Assembly: GCA_028286395.1 (NCBI GenBank)
Contig: JAQBRS010000003.1
Coordinates: 62,001 to 126,000, forward strand
Length of the DNA stretch: 64,000 bases
Direction of reading: 5' to 3'
From: Candidatus Saccharimonadota bacterium
GTDB lineage: Bacteria; Patescibacteriota; Saccharimonadia; Saccharimonadales; Saccharimonadaceae
The stretch's first letter is position 1. Every line of letters starts with the position of its first letter. The translations under genes were made by a program, and so were the position numbers. Below the pieces are notes generated by a model that did no database searches, was not told where the DNA came from, and saw nothing but the letters and a program-made list of their open reading frames with translations. Below are positions 22,402 through 49,096 of this stretch, one piece after another.

Positions 22402-23337
22402 ATGAAGATACTGGGATTTACCATCACCATGGAACAACTTCCATACGTGATCATCATCGCAATCGTGGCACTCGCCGTCATCACACTGGCGATCGTACTG
22501 CCTGTACGATCGTTCAGGAAACACGGGAAGATCACCAAAGATGCCATGAAAGAACGAACGCGGATACATCACGCTCAGGAAGCAATCGACAGCCAAGTCA
22601 CCCAATGGATTCGACCGATCCTTCGAGCTGCGATGACACCAGAAGATGACCTAAAGGTCGTCGGTTACGGTCCGCCACCCGCACACTACGAACAAGCAGC
22701 CAACCGACTCGGAGTCCAAGATGCTCTCGAGCGCCAGAGTGCGGCACAGGCACGAATCGACGCGCTCGCGGTACATTACGCAGCCGCCGACGCGCTGTTC
22801 GCCGAACTGCGAACGCAGTCCGACGACGTCCAAGGGTTGTACGACACGATCCAACAGGCACTCGATGATCACGCCAGCTACATCACTCAAGAGGACCTCG
22901 ATTGGGCAGAGGATCGTCTCGATGACCTGATAGGTCAGCGCTGCACGACGCTACTCGAAGAAGCTCGCCAAGGAAACAAGGAGAGTTTCGACGAGTTGCT
23001 GGAACTCGACCATGATGGTTGTTGGCTGACCGACGACGAAGAACACCCTTCCGACTGGGAGGATCTCGTCGCCAAGTTCATCCCCAACCCGAAGGTCAAG
23101 GACTTCGGTCGACGCACCGATCCAAAGCCGGGCGAACTCCGCTTGCTTGCCGACAAGGCGATCAGGTACGGGCTGTACACGGAAGCCAAGGTCGTTCTGG
23201 CCTACTGCAACCGTCGAAAGCAACCCGAGTTCTACGACGAGGTTGGCATGAGTTTCGCAACGCAACTTGCGCGACTCATCGGGAGTAAGGACCAGGCGAA
23301 ATCCACCCAGATCACCACCTCCAGCGTCGCTGGATAG
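22402..23337 (+). CDS. Membrane-anchored cytoplasmic protein of unknown function, GC-rich class
   Basis: A 311-residue protein with one membrane helix near the N-terminus (about 14-34) followed by a basic stretch, so the long remainder is probably cytoplasmic. Residues 60-210 are helical and rich in Ala, Asp, Gln and Leu; a Trp/Asp/Glu-rich part (DHDGCWLTDDEEHPSDWEDL) follows. No domain recognised. Codon choice is markedly GC-rich compared with the flanking rplL and tdk genes. It has its own promoter and a UUCG-loop terminator. Confidence 0.65.
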   Translation: MKILGFTITMEQLPYVIIIAIVALAVITLAIVLPVRSFRKHGKITKDAMKERTRIHHAQEAIDSQVTQWIRPILRAAMTPEDDLKVVGYGPPPAHYEQAANRLGVQDALERQSAAQARIDALAVHYAAADALFAELRTQSDDVQGLYDTIQQALDDHASYITQEDLDWAEDRLDDLIGQRCTTLLEEARQGNKESFDELLELDHDGCWLTDDEEHPSDWEDLVAKFIPNPKVKDFGRRTDPKPGELRLLADKAIRYGLYTEAKVVLAYCNRRKQPEFYDEVGMSFATQLARLIGSKDQAKSTQITTSSVAG

Positions 23338-30851: not shown

Positions 30852-31634
30852 ATGTTCATTTCCATCAAGGATACTGAGGTCAATCAGTTCCGCAAAGCCC
30901 CGGCGCACCTCGTGAGGCGCGCCAAGTCCAAACACTCGAACATATGGGACCGGTTCTCCATCGCGGCGATCGTGATCGGAGCCCTACTGACCATAGGGGG
31001 GTTCTTTACCTTTGTGGCCACGATGATCTCGCCCCCGACGACATACGACTCCAACGACTGGTACGGCTACTATCCTCACAAGGATTACACGCCCGGCATC
31101 ATCATTGGAGCCGTTCTGTTCTTCCTGGGTCTGTTCCTGATCATCGCAGTGTCTTCACTACTAGAAGACATCGACTACAACGTGAAGAACACTCAGCGGA
31201 ACATCCTCAACGGATACCACCGAGGGTACTTCGTAGGCCCGGAGCACTACAGCTACAAGGCCGTCTTCGGTGGCCCCATGCGAGTCGCCCTAAACAGCAA
31301 GGACGAAGCCGCATGTCGTCACTGGCAGGCAACCAACGAGATGTTCACCTCACGGGCGATCATCAAGGCCGACAAGCAGATCCTCAACGCTGGCAACGGA
31401 CTGAAGGGCATCAAGCGCGCCTACCTGGCGAAGCTTGTGATCCTCGATGCCGCCGACAAGCTGTACTCGAACGAAGCGGTCATTAAGAACGACCACTTCG
31501 ACGACCTCAGGGCAGAAGCGGAACGCAAGTTCACCCGTCGCCTCATCGCGATCAAGGACAAGGCCTCGCGCAAGCTGCAGGCCTCGGAAGAGCTCGAGAG
31601 AGTTCATGCCACGTCCGCGCCCACCAGTCGGTGA
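30852..31634 (+). CDS. Two-span membrane protein of unknown function, GC-rich class
   Basis: A 260-residue protein with two membrane helices (about 36-60 and 82-103), a short Tyr/Asp/Pro-rich outer loop (TTYDSNDWYGYYPHKDY), and a long basic cytoplasmic domain with YFVGPEHYSYKAVFGG and helical Ala/Lys/Arg-rich end. No family recognised. Codons are GC-rich with many CTG, CGC and ATC, unlike recR upstream. TGCTATAAT lies about 40 nt before ATG 30852, leaving a true leader. Confidence 0.65.
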   Translation: MFISIKDTEVNQFRKAPAHLVRRAKSKHSNIWDRFSIAAIVIGALLTIGGFFTFVATMISPPTTYDSNDWYGYYPHKDYTPGIIIGAVLFFLGLFLIIAVSSLLEDIDYNVKNTQRNILNGYHRGYFVGPEHYSYKAVFGGPMRVALNSKDEAACRHWQATNEMFTSRAIIKADKQILNAGNGLKGIKRAYLAKLVILDAADKLYSNEAVIKNDHFDDLRAEAERKFTRRLIAIKDKASRKLQASEELERVHATSAPTSR

Positions 31635-41930: not shown

Positions 41931-41945
41931 GATACAATAGTGCTA

Positions 41946-44477
41946 ATGCTTTATTACCATCGATCGATCGAAGCCACCTACAAAGAGCTCCAGACCGGAC
42001 CGAATGGGCTTTCAAGCCGTGACGTTAAAGAACGATTAGAAACGTACGGACACAACTCAATCCAGATTAAAAGCGAGCCACTATGGCGTAAACTTGCCGA
42101 GCCGTTCGTGAACGTCTTTATGCTCGTTCTGTTTATTGCCGCCGCCATCAGTCTGTTCCATCACGCCATATTTGACGCCGTTATCATTCTCATCATCATG
42201 GCGACCAGCGCAATCATCTATTACGTACAACGGTTCTCGACAGAGCGTATTCTACGCTCGTTGCAAAAACACACGACACAGCGAGTTGAAGTTATTCGTG
42301 GCGGGGAAACCCGTTACATCGAAGACTCCGAACTTGTCCCTGGAGATATTATTCAACTCAATGAAGGCGACAAGATACCTGCTGACATCCGTTTGACCGC
42401 AGCTAATACCTTACGTGTCGACGAAGCGGTATTAACAGGCGAGTCAGCACCCGTGACGAAATCAACAGATACGCTTGAAGACAATAAAGAAGTCTACGAA
42501 CAAGCGAATATGCTGTTCCAAGGGTCGTTTATTGTTGCGGGACAAGCAACGGGTATCGTCGTCTTTACAGGTAATACGACTGAATTTGGCCGTATTGCCG
42601 CTTTATCACGCAAAACATCGACTGATAGTACCAGCCCTGTGCAGAAGAAGATTGATACACTCCTCACCTACATCGTTATGGCCGTTGGTGGTCTCGCTAT
42701 CGGAGCGTTTGCGCTCGCTATCTGGAGAGGTATTGAGTTTACCGAAGCAATTCGCTTCGTCCTCGCGCTATCGGTCTCGGCCGTCCCCGAAAGCCTCCCG
42801 GTTGCAATCTCTGTTATTCTTGTCCTCGGGATGCGTCGTATGGCTGCCAAAAAAGCGCTCGTTCGGACTATGAAAGCAATTGAGACCATTGGTGTGATCA
42901 CCACCATTGCAACGGATAAGACAGGGACATTGACCGAGAACAAGCTGTCCGTCCAAGAACACTGGCAGCCACGTAAAGCCAGGCATGAACTGCCAGCGAT
43001 TGCACACCGTACCATTAATCACCACGGCGAACATACCCGCGACCCACTCGATATTGCGATGATCGAATTTACCCGTGCCGAAAAGTTCGTCGAGCTAAAG
43101 GGTGAACCGATTAAAAAACTACCGTTTGATCAAGCCTTTTCAATGAGTGGTAACATTTGGCATCACGAAGGAACGTACGACCTTGTCGTAAAGGGCGCCC
43201 CAGAACAGATCATGGATCGTAGTCATATGACAGCAGCAGATAGGACCGAGGCAGAAACGGCACTGCAGGGCCTTACCTCAAGGGGATACCGAGTGATTGC
43301 GCTTGCAACAGGTTCAGTCGCAAAGCCAGTTGAGACATTTACCGATCTTTCTGCAAAGCCGCTGTTTACTTTCGTTGGGTTTATGGGGGTCGCTGATACG
43401 CTTCGCCCAACCGCACGTCGGGCTATTCAGACTGCTCAGCGCGCTGGCGTTACCGTTCGCATGATCACTGGTGACCACTTTGAAACTGCTTTCCATATCG
43501 GGAAACAACTGGGATTAATCGAATCGCGTGATCAAGTTTTTGATAGCCGACAGATCGGCGACATGACCGAAGGGCAACTTCGACAACGAGTCGAGAGCTC
43601 ATTCGTGTTCTCGCGTGTTACTCCTGAAAATAAATTCCGCATCTTGCAGGTCTTAAAGATCAAAGAGGTCACCGCTATGACAGGTGACGGAGTCAATGAC
43701 GTTCCCGCACTTTCTAGTGCCCACGTTGGGGTCGCAATGGGGAGTGGATCACAGATTGCTAAGGACGCTGGTGATATCATCCTCCTCAATAACGACTTCG
43801 AGAGTATCATCCGTGCCATGAAAGAAGGGCGAATCATCTTTTCTAATATTCGCCGTATGCTGTTTTACCTGCTCTCGACGAATACAGGCGAGGTTATTAC
43901 CGCACTCTTTTCTATTGGCATTGGGTTTCCGATGCCTCTCTCACCAGTACAGATTCTGTGGGTTAACCTCGTGACTGATACGGCCATGGTTATCCCACTG
44001 GGCCTCGAAAAGGGCGAAAAGCATATTATGAAGATGAAGCCCGTTTCACCAACAGCACCACTACTTGGTCGCTATATGATCTTCCGCGTCGTGCTTGTCG
44101 CCCTGACTATGGCAGCCCTGGCTGTCGCAATGTATATTTACTTCAGTCTCAAATATGGCGCCCCTTACGGTCATACGATCGCCTTTACGGCCTTAGTCGT
44201 CATGCAGTGGGCGAATGCCTTTAATGCGCGAAGCACCTTCCAGTCGTTCTTCACACGCTTGAAGGTCATCAACAAACCGTTCTACGTTGGCTTATCGGTA
44301 TCAGTTATCCTACAAGTCTTAGCTGTCTTTGGACCACTCCAGGGGATGCTCGGTATCACCCCGATTGCGATTGGCGACTTGTTCACGACCAGCCTTATTG
44401 CTTTCAGCATACCAATTCTGGTCGTCGAGATTCATAAGTTCTACGGCCGGCGGTTTGTGAAGCTTATTGTTGAATAA
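41946..44477 (+). CDS. P2-type cation-transporting ATPase (Ca2+-ATPase-like)
   Basis: An 843-residue P-type ATPase: N-terminal cation-ATPase domain, LTGESAP actuator motif, phosphorylation site TDKTGTLTEN (Asp about residue 324), nucleotide site KGAPEQI, hinge MTGDGVNDVPALSSA, and ten membrane segments with PESLPVAISVIL in M4 and ILWVNLVTDT in M6. The residues fit Ca2+/Mn2+ or H+-type P2 pumps. ATG 41946 is chosen since TACAAT 41933-41938 ends 7 nt before it; GTG 41940 would fall inside that spacing. Confidence 0.92.
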   Translation: MLYYHRSIEATYKELQTGPNGLSSRDVKERLETYGHNSIQIKSEPLWRKLAEPFVNVFMLVLFIAAAISLFHHAIFDAVIILIIMATSAIIYYVQRFSTERILRSLQKHTTQRVEVIRGGETRYIEDSELVPGDIIQLNEGDKIPADIRLTAANTLRVDEAVLTGESAPVTKSTDTLEDNKEVYEQANMLFQGSFIVAGQATGIVVFTGNTTEFGRIAALSRKTSTDSTSPVQKKIDTLLTYIVMAVGGLAIGAFALAIWRGIEFTEAIRFVLALSVSAVPESLPVAISVILVLGMRRMAAKKALVRTMKAIETIGVITTIATDKTGTLTENKLSVQEHWQPRKARHELPAIAHRTINHHGEHTRDPLDIAMIEFTRAEKFVELKGEPIKKLPFDQAFSMSGNIWHHEGTYDLVVKGAPEQIMDRSHMTAADRTEAETALQGLTSRGYRVIALATGSVAKPVETFTDLSAKPLFTFVGFMGVADTLRPTARRAIQTAQRAGVTVRMITGDHFETAFHIGKQLGLIESRDQVFDSRQIGDMTEGQLRQRVESSFVFSRVTPENKFRILQVLKIKEVTAMTGDGVNDVPALSSAHVGVAMGSGSQIAKDAGDIILLNNDFESIIRAMKEGRIIFSNIRRMLFYLLSTNTGEVITALFSIGIGFPMPLSPVQILWVNLVTDTAMVIPLGLEKGEKHIMKMKPVSPTAPLLGRYMIFRVVLVALTMAALAVAMYIYFSLKYGAPYGHTIAFTALVVMQWANAFNARSTFQSFFTRLKVINKPFYVGLSVSVILQVLAVFGPLQGMLGITPIAIGDLFTTSLIAFSIPILVVEIHKFYGRRFVKLIVE

Positions 44478-44535: not shown

Positions 44536-44787
44536 CTAAGAGATAATACTGAGAAGCATCCAGTTTCCTCCGTGGTTGTCGCTACGAAGTCGGTACTGTG
44601 ATTGACCGTCTGTAAGGGTAATGATCTCTGCCATTTGCTCACCTGAACGGATAAGGCAGCGAAGGCCAGCGTCGAGGAACTCGTAGATAGTGCCCCGGAA
44701 TTCCATACGTCGTGGGTATGCCGATAGGTCTTTCTTGAAGCCCATTTTTGTGACGGCGATTTCTTCGTTGATAGTGATACGATTCAT
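44536..44787 (-). CDS. 83-residue protein of unknown function
   Basis: A small soluble, beta-rich protein (RRMEFRGTIYEFLDAGLRCL, LTDGQSQYRLRSDNHGGNWM) with no family I recognise. AGGAG lies 9 nt before ATG 44787. The nearest good promoter boxes on this strand are about 290 nt away near 45080-45107, so the message may carry a long leader. Confidence 0.6.
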   Translation of the reverse strand: MNRITINEEIAVTKMGFKKDLSAYPRRMEFRGTIYEFLDAGLRCLIRSGEQMAEIITLTDGQSQYRLRSDNHGGNWMLLSIIS

Positions 44788-45145
44788 GATTGTGTTCTCC
44801 TAAGAAGTTTGTTGTTTGATTCTAGTAACGCAAAAAGGCTGACAACATTATTTTGGTCAGCAGCGGCTTTGAATTCCATTTCTGGGGAGGAGAGATTTAG
44901 AGAGGGGAGAGAGACCGCTTTGACTCGTCTGCCTGTTTACTAAATATCACGTAGAATTGTATCGATTACCAGGGGCGCCTTCTCTGTTAACTTGAGGGTG
45001 TGCATAGCATCGGTTGGTGGCTTCTGTATAAGCCTATAAGTGGAAATCCTCGCAGAAGTACTTATATGACTATCCTAAGTATACACCCGCCTATAGCATG
45101 AGCGTCAAGCATTGTTTTCACCCTAGTTTATGGAGCTCACGTATA
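44788..45145. other. Gene-free stretch with possible RNA structure
   Basis: No coding frame or tRNA is convincing here. On the minus strand TTGACG and TATACT boxes (about 45107-45077) could start a long leader for the 44536 gene. Between them, CTTCTG 45021-45026 can pair with CAGAAG 45053-45058, and TATAAGT 45035-45041 with ACTTATA 45060-45066; these two stems cross, as in a pseudoknot, or are alternatives. The rest shows nothing clear. Confidence 0.35.
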
Positions 45146-45238
45146 TTTACATTTTGATCAATTTGTGCTATAATTGTCTAGTTGCCGTGGGCCTTTGATT
45201 TTAAGGTGCCCTGGTGGCACCTTAAATCTTAGGCTCAC
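45146..45238 (+). promoter_or_regulatory. Promoter and long 5' UTR hairpin of the surface-protein operon
   Basis: TTTACA 45146-45151 and TATAAT 45169-45174 (17-nt spacer, TGTGC before the -10). The leader of about 138 nt contains a large hairpin: TTTAAGGTGCC 45200-45210 with GGCACCTTAAA 45216-45226 (11 bp), extended outward by GTGGGCCT 45187-45194 with AGGCTCAC 45231-45238. No T tract follows, so it is a structural or stabilising element, not a terminator. Confidence 0.65.
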
Positions 45239-45318: not shown

Positions 45319-47100
45319 ATGAGGGCTTCTCGTTTCATGAAGAGTGCGGCTGCGGTATGTACCGTTTCAGCCATGCTCTTTCTGGGTACCGTCTCGGCAG
45401 CTAATGCCGCAGACGGAGTTCCCGATCCTGCCACGACGCCCGTCGTCGCCACAGCGGATCCGAGTCCCTCACCGGACCCGGCCCCCGTTGCTGCACCTGC
45501 AGCTGACCCCGCACCCGAAGCACCCAGCTCGACCGCCCCCGTGGTGACCGACACGGATGTTCCAGTTGCACCGACCGATGAGAAGAGCAGTCCTCCGGCG
45601 CCGGCTGAACAGCCAGCACCTCAGGTCGCTGCTCGGATCACGAGCAATGGCTACGAGACCCCCAAAAAGGTCTTCGTCTGCAAGTACGTTGGCACCCCTG
45701 GTGTCGACGAACGTCTACAGACAAGTATCCAGAACCCGATCTCGGTCAGCGTCAACGCGATCCAGCACAACAAATGGGACGGCACGGTTCCGGGGTACTT
45801 CTCGGACGCCCATGACCGTTCCTACGTGCTCGCGTACGACACAGGGCAGACCGAACCGGATGCCTCGGCATGTCCGACTCCGGTCGGACCGCCACCGGTC
45901 GTGCAGAAGGAGGTGGGTTTGTACATCTACCCGCTTCTCGATGCAACCCAGGCTCCCTCATGGGAGAACTCAGGCACGCAGATCTTCTGTGCAAGCAAGG
46001 ACGGCGACACGTGGTTTACCACGCTGAGCTGCACCTTGCCTCCGCAGGTCTGTGGCCCGAGCTGGGGCTACCAGCAGGACAAGGTCAAGGACTGGGGCTA
46101 CGCCGGCGCTTTCAATTGGCCGTCGAGCATTCAGTTCCCGATCGACAATATTGGGTGGCCACCGATCTACGATGCGAAGCACGGACTCCTGTCCGAGCTG
46201 ACCACCGTTCCGGACTGCACGCCGCCACCGACCCCGGTGACGGACACGCCTGTCATTACCGTGACCGGCCCGACGTGCGACGCGCCCTACAACACCATCA
46301 ACTACACCATCCCTGAGGGGCTGAGCGTGAACGGGTTCACTGGCACGGGTTCCATCCGTGCTGAGGACTACCCGGACGCGCGTGGTGATGGAAGCAGCAT
46401 CTACGGCCACTGGAGCGATCCGGTGACCGTCGAGGACGGGTTCAGCTATGACGGACCCTCCACGCTGGAGTTCGATCTGGTGGACCCGGCGACGCTCGAC
46501 TGCACCGTTCCGACGATGCACCCCGAGAATGTCGTGTTCCATGACAGCTGTGGCGTGACTGATGACTCCACCAACGTTCCTGGTTCCAGCGACGGTCCTG
46601 CGACCGTCGTCAAGGATCAGCCGAACGTCGGAGACACCACCACGCTCAGCTCGTACTCCTCCGAACAGGGTGGGTACAACGTCAAGGACGTGGTGACTGC
46701 AACTGGTGTTCACAGCAGCGAGGTCACGTTCGTTCAGATCGGTGCAGCGACCATCGCTGACCCGGGACCGAACGACACGTACAAGATCGTGGTAATCGAC
46801 GGACACCGGTACGCCCAGTGGACGTACACGTTCGACAGCACGCCATGCCCGACACCGACGCCAACTCCCACCCCCACGCCCACCACACCTGCGACGGTCA
46901 TCCCGTCCAGTAACGGTGGTGCGAACACGGGTCTGAACGGCAGCCAGCCGGGCGCATCCAGCGCCTTGGTCAGCAACCTCGCGCCTTCGGGCTGGGGTAT
47001 CGGTGGCGGCGTCATCGCCTTCATGGCCCTCATCGCGGCCCTGATCGTCGTGGTCACGCGCAAGCGGAACCGCAACAACGGCGAAGCGAGTGTCGAGTAG
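45319..47100 (+). CDS. Large secreted surface protein with C-terminal anchor, GC-rich class
   Basis: A 593-residue protein: signal peptide ending near TVSAANA (about 31), a Pro/Ala-rich linker (40-105), a Cys-containing ectodomain with many Asp, Thr and Trp (about 110-510), a Pro-Thr repeat (about 514-528), then a membrane helix (about 557-579) and a basic tail (TRKRNRNNGEASVE). No LPxTG is seen; the GGANTGLNGSQPG stretch before the helix may be the sorting site. AAAGGAAA ribosome site. It overlaps a sortase gene by 11 nt. GC-rich codons resemble Actinobacteria. Probably a cell-surface or host-contact protein. Confidence 0.75.
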   Translation: MRASRFMKSAAAVCTVSAMLFLGTVSAANAADGVPDPATTPVVATADPSPSPDPAPVAAPAADPAPEAPSSTAPVVTDTDVPVAPTDEKSSPPAPAEQPAPQVAARITSNGYETPKKVFVCKYVGTPGVDERLQTSIQNPISVSVNAIQHNKWDGTVPGYFSDAHDRSYVLAYDTGQTEPDASACPTPVGPPPVVQKEVGLYIYPLLDATQAPSWENSGTQIFCASKDGDTWFTTLSCTLPPQVCGPSWGYQQDKVKDWGYAGAFNWPSSIQFPIDNIGWPPIYDAKHGLLSELTTVPDCTPPPTPVTDTPVITVTGPTCDAPYNTINYTIPEGLSVNGFTGTGSIRAEDYPDARGDGSSIYGHWSDPVTVEDGFSYDGPSTLEFDLVDPATLDCTVPTMHPENVVFHDSCGVTDDSTNVPGSSDGPATVVKDQPNVGDTTTLSSYSSEQGGYNVKDVVTATGVHSSEVTFVQIGAATIADPGPNDTYKIVVIDGHRYAQWTYTFDSTPCPTPTPTPTPTPTTPATVIPSSNGGANTGLNGSQPGASSALVSNLAPSGWGIGGGVIAFMALIAALIVVVTRKRNRNNGEASVE

Positions 47101-47827
47101 CCGCAAGGCTCTCGTCGCACTACTCGTTGCAATAATGGTGGCGGGGCTCGGTGCCTACGCGTGGGACTCTCTGAGACCACACGCGGCGAAACCAGCCCCG
47201 CCATCAATGGCATCGGTGTGGCGTCCAGTGGAAGTCACGCCGGTGCCGTCATCAGCGGTGCCCGAGAGTGATCTCGTCATACCGGCCAGCGCGCCGGTTC
47301 GACTCGAAATCCCCAATATCGGCTTCGATTCGTCGAAACTGGCAGGGAAGGGAACATCGAATCCGATCCAGCAATGGACGAAGGCGATGAACGACGCCAA
47401 GAACGGCGTAGTTGACCCTCCTGGAAAATGGGAATCGAGTCTCGTCTGGGACTCAACAGTAGCAGGTGGCGGTCTCTTCGGAACCGACGCTCAGTCAAGC
47501 GGACGCATCCTGGCCCATACCACTCCGTGGACGTGGGACAAAGACAAGCAAGGTGCCTTCCAGCACCTCCGCGACGTGCATGTTGGTAACTCTGTTGCCA
47601 TCACCACGGAGAAAGGACGACTCTGCTACAACGTCGTCAAACTGGACTCGGTCCTGAAGCCCCAAGTCAATGTTGTTTACAGCAAAGGCGAAGATGGGAT
47701 AATCAAAGGGATCGTGTACCTGATCACGTGTGATCGCCCCCTTGACTACGGTGAAGGTGCGACGACTCACAACCTGGTGGTCACCCTGCAGCTGAATCAG
47801 CAGCAGACGAACACCGGGTCGTGCTAG
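47090..47827 (+). CDS. Sortase-family protein, GC-rich class
   Basis: A 245-residue membrane-anchored protein: anchor at 7-25, linker, and a sortase barrel with RLEIPNIGFD near 71, the catalytic His in GRILAHTTPW (H143) and catalytic Cys in YLITCDRPLD (C214). Sortases join surface proteins to peptidoglycan. The usual third residue, an Arg in a THRxxV-type motif, is Asn here (TTHNLVV, N228), though R216 follows the Cys. GTG 47090 lies inside the end of the surface-protein gene, so the pair is an operon and the surface protein its likely substrate. Confidence 0.8.
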   Translation: MSSSRKALVALLVAIMVAGLGAYAWDSLRPHAAKPAPPSMASVWRPVEVTPVPSSAVPESDLVIPASAPVRLEIPNIGFDSSKLAGKGTSNPIQQWTKAMNDAKNGVVDPPGKWESSLVWDSTVAGGGLFGTDAQSSGRILAHTTPWTWDKDKQGAFQHLRDVHVGNSVAITTEKGRLCYNVVKLDSVLKPQVNVVYSKGEDGIIKGIVYLITCDRPLDYGEGATTHNLVVTLQLNQQQTNTGSC

Positions 47828-47946: not shown

Positions 47947-47975
47947 GAGCCCTCTCCGTGAGGGCTCTTTGATTT
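47947..47975 (+). terminator. Terminator of the surface-protein/sortase operon
   Basis: GAGCCCTC 47947-47954 pairs perfectly with GAGGGCTC 47960-47967, followed by TTTGATTT. Confidence 0.8.
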
Positions 47976-48007: not shown

Positions 48008-49096
48008 ATGAAACAAGAGGGCACCACACCAAAAAACGTCATTACTCCAGCTGAATCAAAAACAATGATTGATGCTTTTTTAAACCCGCTCTTTAAACAA
48101 CTGACTGAAAATGCCAGGCGAGTGAGCCCTCACTATGAAACGCTCTGGCAAGACGTCCACAAACTCTACAGTGCAGGCGGAAAGCGCCTCCGCTCGTACA
48201 TGACGCTTCTCACGTACGAAGCATTCAGTAAGAAACCTGCTAAAACGATTCTGCCCGCTGCGGCTGCGGCCGAGCTCCTCCATATGGCAATGCTCGTACA
48301 CGACGACGTCATTGACCGTGATGATATCCGTTATGGCATCAAAAATGTTACCGGCGAATACCTGATTCATTACGAGGAGCTAATCAAAGACGAAGCCGAC
48401 CGCAGGCACTATGCGAATAGCGCTGCTATTCTCGCAGGCGATCTGCTTATCTCGGAAGCATATATCTTGATTACCGAAACTAAAACCAATCCAGCCGCCA
48501 TCGTTGCAGCGCAACATTTAATTGCAAAAGCAATGTTTCACGTCATCGCTGGCGAACTGCTTGATACGGAAGCCTCATTTCGAGGCGGAGATTCAGCTCA
48601 TCCACTGTTGATTGCCGAAGAGAAAACAGCCAGTTATTCATTCGTGAGCCCCTTCCTCATGGGAGCAGTCCTTGCCGAAGCGACACTTGCACAACAAGAG
48701 ATCCTGCAAAAATTAGGCGAACAATTAGGAATCGGCTATCAACTGCGCGATGACATTCTGGGTATTTTTGGGGACGAGGCGAAAACAGGCAAGAGTGCCA
48801 GTGGCGACATAAAAGAAGGAAAACAAACACTTCTCATCGAGGAATTCGGTATCCTCGCAACAGAAGCGCAACAGACTGAGTTCCGTACCATTTTCGGACG
48901 ACACGACGTATCTGAAAAAGAATTGAAGCGAATAAAAACGCTTCTCGTTGAAAGCGGTGCAAAACAAGCGGTTGAGATTCAAATCGATGCTTTTCGCGAA
49001 TATACATTGGCGCTTCTTGAATCACTCAATATAGATGCGCCACACAAAGAAGCCTTCAGTACCTTGATTGAACTCTGTCTCAAGCGCGATAAATAG
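48008..49096 (+). CDS. Polyprenyl diphosphate synthase
   Basis: A 362-residue trans-isoprenyl synthase. First Asp-rich motif MLVHDDVIDRDD, second YQLRDDILGIFGD; GGKRLRSYMTLL near the N-terminus binds isopentenyl diphosphate. It makes a prenyl diphosphate of unknown length, perhaps for the lipid carrier used by the PAP2 phosphatase and glycosyltransferases. TATAGT ends 8 nt before ATG 48008. A longer C-terminus than usual is helical. Confidence 0.88.
   Translation: MKQEGTTPKNVITPAESKTMIDAFLNPLFKQLTENARRVSPHYETLWQDVHKLYSAGGKRLRSYMTLLTYEAFSKKPAKTILPAAAAAELLHMAMLVHDDVIDRDDIRYGIKNVTGEYLIHYEELIKDEADRRHYANSAAILAGDLLISEAYILITETKTNPAAIVAAQHLIAKAMFHVIAGELLDTEASFRGGDSAHPLLIAEEKTASYSFVSPFLMGAVLAEATLAQQEILQKLGEQLGIGYQLRDDILGIFGDEAKTGKSASGDIKEGKQTLLIEEFGILATEAQQTEFRTIFGRHDVSEKELKRIKTLLVESGAKQAVEIQIDAFREYTLALLESLNIDAPHKEAFSTLIELCLKRDK

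Follow-up and report, generated by a model that had tools for sequence, protein, structure and literature searches.

What does a sortase act on when the surface protein encoded beside it carries no LPxTG motif? The question is raised by two overlapping genes in the window, i.e. the whole stretch of DNA analysed here, 64,000 nucleotides (bases 62001–126000) of contig JAQBRS010000003.1 from a Candidatus Saccharimonadota bacterium. The reading favoured here, probable though well short of certain, is that the pair is one surface-display unit: a class-F-like sortase translationally coupled to its dedicated substrate, which would be cut between T and G of its GGANTG sequence and then linked to the cell wall precursor.

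The overlapping genes and the surface protein

The features of the pair are as follows.

45319..47100, + strand: P0001, exported surface protein gene, 593 aa, ATG start; open reading frame with relatives at the same site in genomes G007 and G117
45319..45408, + strand: signal peptide of P0001, residues 1–30, cleavage near the ANA/AD junction (residues 28–32), read from sequence
45679..45693, + strand: start of the CKYVG module of the P0001 ectodomain, also present in a surface protein of genome G178 (L118)
46849..46878, + strand: Pro-Thr spacer of P0001, residues 511–520
47008..47058, + strand: C-terminal membrane helix of P0001, about residues 564–580, read from sequence
47059..47073, + strand: basic tail RKRNR of P0001, residues 581–585
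47090..47827, + strand: P0002, divergent class-F-like sortase gene, 245 aa, GTG start, with a membrane helix (residues 7–25), a stalk, H143, C214 and Asn228

A sequence-only reading of this locus described an exported 593-residue protein with signal peptide, spacer, membrane helix and basic tail, and this layout is confirmed in the open reading frame at 45319–47100. Also confirmed is the position of the gene upstream of and overlapping the sortase gene. The overlap is 11 bases and suggests coupled translation. The pair is real in that it is kept together in three genomes, the window genome (G000), G007 and G117. Open reading frame length alone is no proof of coding here, as the GC-rich stretch also yields long antisense frames (378 aa); it is the presence of relatives at the same place in two other genomes that supports the coding reading of P0001. 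P0001 shows no match in Pfam or NCBIfam and no convincing match to solved structures. Plasmid and phage searches with P0001 gave no match, and viral contigs likewise gave none.

Two further features lie outside the pair.

45146..45174, + strand: promoter-like sequence (TTTACA-17-TATAAT) 5′ of the pair, judged by consensus match only and mostly conserved across the four aligned genomes
47952..47964, + strand: weak terminator-like hairpin 3′ of the sortase gene; 5 in the region vs 3.4 expected by shuffling

The region upstream of the pair has no Rfam match. Nearby, on the − strand, positions 44826–45100 of the window form a non-coding leader upstream of a small open reading frame (44536–44787). 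The leader is strongly conserved in four genomes and ends, before the small gene, in a terminator-like hairpin (GCTGAC...GTCAGC followed by CTTTTT). It shows no Rfam match and its fold is no stronger than that of shuffled sequences (z = 0.30). It is perhaps a cis-regulatory RNA.

Class and catalytic residues of the sortase

P0002 passes the Pfam gathering cut-off for PF04203 (32.5 bits vs 26.6, E-value = 8.4e-8). Its best-scoring NCBIfam class is class F (NF033748), with 23.4 bits where the curated cut-off of 166 is not reached. The LPNTG-linked sortase of the same genome, which encodes four sortases in 851,656 bases, is also below that cut-off (116.9 vs 166). On sequence comparison P0002 is described here as a divergent, class-F-like sortase, far under the curated class F cut-off. 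The single P0002 sequence gave nothing below E = 0.5 against solved structures, while a ten-sequence sortase profile found 33 chains, mostly named sortases, with a best E-value of 3e-6. A plasmid search with P0002 gave no match. An AlphaFold2 model built from the window sortase and one relative only (L005) had a pLDDT of 31 and was set aside.

In an alignment of 57 sortases, H143 and C214 of P0002 align with the catalytic His and Cys of the 56 others, and neither residue varies across the 57. At the column of the usual catalytic Arg, P0002 has Asn228. Asn also stands at this column in 22 of the 23 class F enzymes annotated on plasmids (loci including L148–L152 and L161–L177) and in 17 of 24 divergent Saccharibacteria sortases. 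With Asn so common in the plasmid enzymes, the missing Arg is no bar to a class F relationship, and P0002 may well be active without it. The lone Arg exception among the plasmid enzymes is that of Planococcus, whose partner carries MPETG. Three Arg-type rows of the alignment show Asp in the Arg column, which is taken as an alignment shift beside their Arg-Arg. Two other assignments were dropped: replacement of the Arg by His or Lys, as the wider alignment puts Asn at that column, and a relocated Arg at Cys+2 (CDR), which several pairs do not have.

A His-Cys-Arg triad is described as universal among sortases (PMC13257024). The Asn of the plasmid class F sortases contrasts with that description.

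A profile of the window sortase group compared with a class F profile gives a probability of 97.4 and an E-value of 9e-12, with Asn aligned to Asn. In a tree of the 57 sortases the window group is placed not with the core class F enzymes but in a divergent branch (support 98/91) which consists of Saccharibacteria sortases together with three plasmid enzymes annotated as class F, from Tsukamurella, Amycolatopsis and one Arthrobacter. The sortase of another Saccharibacteria genome, G022, is situated inside the actinobacterial class F branch (support 97/97). Among the three sortase orthologues, P0002 included, dN is 0.066–0.121 and dS 0.18–0.33; the resulting dN/dS of about 0.35 indicates that the sortase is under constraint.

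Candidate sorting signals

Two stretches between the spacer and the helix of P0001 come into question as a signal.

46915..46932, + strand: GGANTG, residues 533–538 of P0001, preferred candidate sorting signal, predicted cut between T and G
46978..46992, + strand: LAPSG, residues 554–558 of P0001, rival candidate signal, in the position that LAFTG occupies in the relative from genome G135

The earlier statement that P0001 has no LPxTG is correct. L[PA]xTG is absent before the helix as well; LAPSG, one substitution (Ser for Thr) from LAxTG and passed over in that earlier reading, is all that is found directly before the helix. P0001 does show GG followed by Val/Ala and x-Thr-Gly before the helix and basic tail, beside a class-F-type sortase. 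The signal block reads SNGGANTGLNGSQPGASS in G000, GNGGVNTGENGSQPGASS in G007 and SNGGANTGLSGSQPGASS in G117. Nearer the helix the sequences are NLAPSG, NLTPSG and NSISPW, respectively. Thus GG[AV]NTG is present in three of three orthologues and exact LAPSG in one of three (G000). The blocks of G000 and G117 are near-identical in DNA, silent sites included, and as this may reflect recency, conservation of the block among three orthologues is weak evidence alone. When the 49 residues ahead of the helix are shuffled, the pattern GG[VAI]x[TA]G arises in 1.8% of cases. The gap from GGANTG to the helix is about 25 residues, vs 8–21 residues in plasmid partners with the strict motif.

A sorting domain of this kind is already catalogued in NCBIfam (GVDTG, NF058571), so that the proposal of a new signal is not supported. 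NF058571 matches the partner of a Streptomyces class F sortase (36.5 bits, cut-off 29) and the partner in the G022 pair (29.6 bits), an independent Saccharibacteria pair with a GGVNTG partner and an Asn-type sortase. Of the 394 family genomes, only G022 scores above cut-off. There is no match to P0001, none to its C-terminus up to E = 10 and none in its own genome, and the surface proteins of G007 and G117 show no match either. As P0001 has no NF058571 score, its signal is a predicted, divergent instance of the GVDTG type.

Of 23 annotated class F sortase loci on plasmids, 20 contributed a partner to the motif count (L153 was left out as Arg-type, and L161 and L172 showed no partner). GG[VAI]x[TA]G is found in 9 of these 20 partners where shuffling predicts 0.39, the shorter G[VAI]x[TA]G in 11 where shuffling predicts 1.8, and L[PA]x[TS]G in none. 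The motifs include GGVETGGG (Streptomyces, Cryobacterium), GGADTG (Arthrobacter, twice), GGIHTGGG, GGVRAG, GGVAAG (twice) and GGVGAG.

In Saccharibacteria, sortase matches occur in 164 of 394 genomes, and neighbours were covered at 20 further loci (3 of them with no sortase open reading frame) and in 40 stretches. The strict motif is present in 2 of 12 partner lineages (G000 and G022; 0.05 expected). Left out of these 12 rows are G155 and three near-copies (G007, G117, G132); two of the 12, G015 and G096, do not come out as Asn-type in the later alignment. Other partners show a looser xxTG, e.g. AAHTG in G105 and FDTG in G130. The partners in G194 and in G127, whose sortase is the nearest other one, show no such motif. 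The suggestion that the area before the helix is a sorting signal thus stands to the extent that GGANTG is found where class F partners carry the same kind of pentapeptide, and the proposed search for a motif shared among homologues did recover GG[AV]NTG in every orthologue; however, that conservation is largely at the DNA level and the motif is not strict across the divergent Saccharibacteria lineages.

In a comparison of 47 pairs, xPx[TS]G partners are found beside 15 of 18 Arg-type sortases and beside 0 of 29 Asn-type sortases (Fisher p = 1e-9). G-type motifs are found in 13 of 29 Asn-type partners and 2 of 18 Arg-type partners (p = 0.02). These p values are descriptive and not proof: the sequences had been viewed before labels (by eye) and patterns were chosen, the rows are related, and two of the 18 Arg-type rows fit the G-type pattern too. 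Replacement of Arg by Asn and loss of Leu/Pro go together in these pairs, which gives a directly testable enzyme-signal rule. The Arg of Streptomyces SrtE1 forms a bond with the signal's P3 residue (excerpt of PMC5148588), and by analogy a link between loss of the Arg and loss of Leu-Pro is plausible. One class F enzyme, from Cutibacterium acnes, is reported to use LPXTG (PMC13257024).

Among known systems, the pair most resembles the actinobacterial class F sortases with GVDTG partners (NF033748, NF058571), in the order partner-sortase, in Asn at the Arg column and in GG[VA]xTG before the helix. It differs in having a partner with no NF058571 match, a sortase far below the class F cut-off, a longer gap between motif and helix, and overlapping genes. 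Class E sortases with LAXTG substrates, such as Streptomyces SrtE1 (PMC5148588, excerpt), also show Ala in place of the motif Pro, and LAxTG is used by the surface proteins of four relatives at the window site. However, class E enzymes have the active-site Arg and a signal starting with Leu, whereas the window pair has Asn in the enzyme and Gly in the motif. SrtB of Clostridioides difficile, with (S/P)PXTG, is another natural case of a signal with no leading Leu, but that signal keeps its Pro (PMC4155245, in part). NVQTG, once proposed for the same enzyme, was not cut by SrtB in vitro according to the same excerpt of PMC4155245; it resembles GVNTG. Ordinary Saccharibacteria sortase operons, consisting of an ice-binding-like protein and a sortase, also have the partner gene directly upstream, but with LPNTG-type signals and an Arg-type sortase. 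The window genome has an example at L002, in which the sortase follows an ice-binding-like protein with canonical LPNTG.

It is unlikely that LAPSG is the true signal, as a worn LAxTG that P0002, or a different one of the genome's four sortases, would read. LAPSG does align with the LAFTG of the G135 relative, all four relatives at the site with no adjacent sortase have LAxTG, and the spacing from LAPSG to the helix is the usual one. But the corresponding sequence is LTPSG in G007 and SISPW in G117, though both keep the sortase at 83–88% identity, and among the 12 Saccharibacteria and 20 plasmid partners no L[PA]x[TS]G is seen other than the LAPSG of P0001. On these comparisons GGANTG appears the better candidate. 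The further reading that P0001 is a plain membrane-anchored surface protein, beside a sortase that is inactive or acts on something else, is rather improbable. It would fit the missing Arg of P0002, Arg and Cys having been found essential in a study of another sortase (PMC13257024, excerpt), and also a motif that is not strict across Saccharibacteria pairs. Yet His and Cys are invariant in the alignment, the plasmid class F enzymes have the same Asn, the dN/dS of the sortase indicates constraint, and the genes for surface protein and sortase travel together.

Polymerization of P0001 into a pilus-like fibre, rather than single-molecule anchoring, is very unlikely. The Tsukamurella and Amycolatopsis branch-mates of the window sortase adjoin proteins with a prealbumin-like fold, a domain known from pilins, but no second subunit gene is seen beside the window pair.

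The preferred reading is a display unit acting through GGANTG. Counting against it are the missing NF058571 match of P0001 and its two orthologues, the long gap to the helix, the small share of Saccharibacteria lineages with the strict motif, the possible recency of the block, the position of the window sortases apart from the core class F branch, and the LPXTG reported for the C. acnes enzyme. P0001 would be exported by its signal peptide, halted in the membrane by the C-terminal helix and RKRNR, and cut by P0002 between T and G of GGANTG. The cut protein would be transferred to lipid II, the cell wall precursor, giving a wall-linked product with its ectodomain displayed beyond the Pro/Thr spacer. 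Covalent anchoring of P0001 is inferred, and a part in host attachment is conjecture, on which the comparisons speak neither for nor against.

Flanking site and history of the pair

The genes on either side of the pair are as follows.

41940..44477, + strand: cation-transporting P-type ATPase, upstream flank
48008..49096, + strand: polyprenyl synthetase, downstream flank

The sortase or a close relative (83–88% identity) is found in 3 of 295 family genomes, G000, G007 and G117, all of one genus, and in each the pair sits between the ATPase and the polyprenyl synthetase. G127, of the same genus, has a sortase at 33% identity. The nearest named relative among the matches is Candidatus Saccharibacteria bacterium UBA6040 (L005). 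The polyprenyl synthetase is present in 14 of 17 genomes of the genus, and in 7 of the 14 it directly adjoins a gene for an exported anchor protein; three of the seven have the sortase pair, and the other four have no adjacent sortase. The latter four (G135, G158, G170 and G182) have a GC-rich surface gene whose product shows LAFTG, LASTG, LAETG or LAATG ahead of its helix; the contigs of G170 and G182 stop short of the ATPase position. The ATPase is directly beside the polyprenyl synthetase in G064 and G176, four more genomes have other neighbours there, and G188 is at a contig edge. The G135 surface protein has ectodomain stretches in common with P0001. From this arrangement the polyprenyl synthetase flank appears to be a swap site for surface genes.

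The surface gene and the sortase have GC contents of 0.628 and 0.580, with a mean of 0.485 over 38 long window open reading frames, the pair included. Their GC3 values are 0.749 and 0.659, with a mean of 0.493 over the same set. By codon likelihood, unlike GC and GC3, the pair is low but within the range of 28 other long window open reading frames (surface gene −1.229, sortase −1.246, lowest −1.257). Open reading frames 30852–31634 and 22402–23337 of the window also show high GC3 (0.79 and 0.65).

The sortase dS is 0.18 for G000-G007, 0.29 for G000-G117 and 0.33 for G007-G117. The polyprenyl synthetase gives 0.60, 1.97 and 2.23 for the same comparisons, the ATPase is saturated in all three, and a third neighbour gives 0.50 and is then saturated twice. 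The ectodomain of P0001 is a mosaic across orthologues, some windows being strongly diverged and others almost identical. A sortase dS lower than that of its neighbours means either that the pair moved between species after their split or that its silent sites are unusually constrained. The pair was probably exchanged horizontally. Its GC content, the plasmid branch-mates of the sortase and the shared signal suggest an origin from actinobacteria, with the qualification that the window sortases lie outside the core class F branch. The suggestion that the pair could be a lineage-specific unit is not supported, as the same logic recurs in actinobacteria.

Several other Saccharibacteria sortase loci were seen. 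A second apparent swap site adjoins an S4/FtsJ methyltransferase gene (L059, L064, L090, L091, L110, L112, L118, L134 and L135; identified by Pfam in L059 only, elsewhere by eye). Divergent sortases, most of which have a GC-rich partner, occupy it in nine genomes from several genera, and YchF is also adjacent in L059 and L064. Operon partners with LPYT[SA]GD, i.e. LPxTG with one extra residue, are found in L066 (2286–3545), L067 (2943–4013), L070 (73–1164) and L076 (2030–3367); relatives of this operon show LPYTG and LPNTG in L072 and L074. In many Saccharibacteria a sortase lies downstream of a gene with a SecY-like C-terminus (by eye; L099, L106, L114, L116, L120, L126 and others) and is possibly a housekeeping enzyme. 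In L092, L095, L097, L102 and L103 the sortase frames are long, about 410–620 residues, and an additional N-terminal region precedes the membrane helix.

In the open-access literature, with subscription papers mostly outside its scope, no paper on GVDTG and sortase together was found among the matches listed. Searches of that literature for Saccharibacteria with sortase or LPXTG gave none on this by title and abstract start, and for class F sortase with asparagine none by title. A sortase family is reported in over half of CPR genomes (PMC6744442), and what class F sortases do physiologically is described as unknown in an excerpt of PMC13251363.

The locus is a real surface-display pair of ordinary logic. 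Its signal type is catalogued, its occurrence in this lineage is unexpected, and there are signs that the pair was exchanged horizontally. The pairing of an Asn-type enzyme with a signal that has neither Leu nor Pro is, as a general rule, a more interesting outcome than the pair itself. Saccharibacteria are small bacteria living on actinobacteria. A broader and quite tentative possibility, more doubtful than the display unit itself, is that Asn-for-Arg sortases form a separate code, widespread in actinobacteria, which reads GG[VA]x[TA]G-like signals lacking Leu and Pro; Saccharibacteria would have taken up cassettes of enzyme and substrate, would swap them at fixed chromosomal sites and would wear host-type surface proteins. 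For Saccharibacteria, the pair marks a route for the exchange of surface proteins, which are likely contact points with host bacteria.
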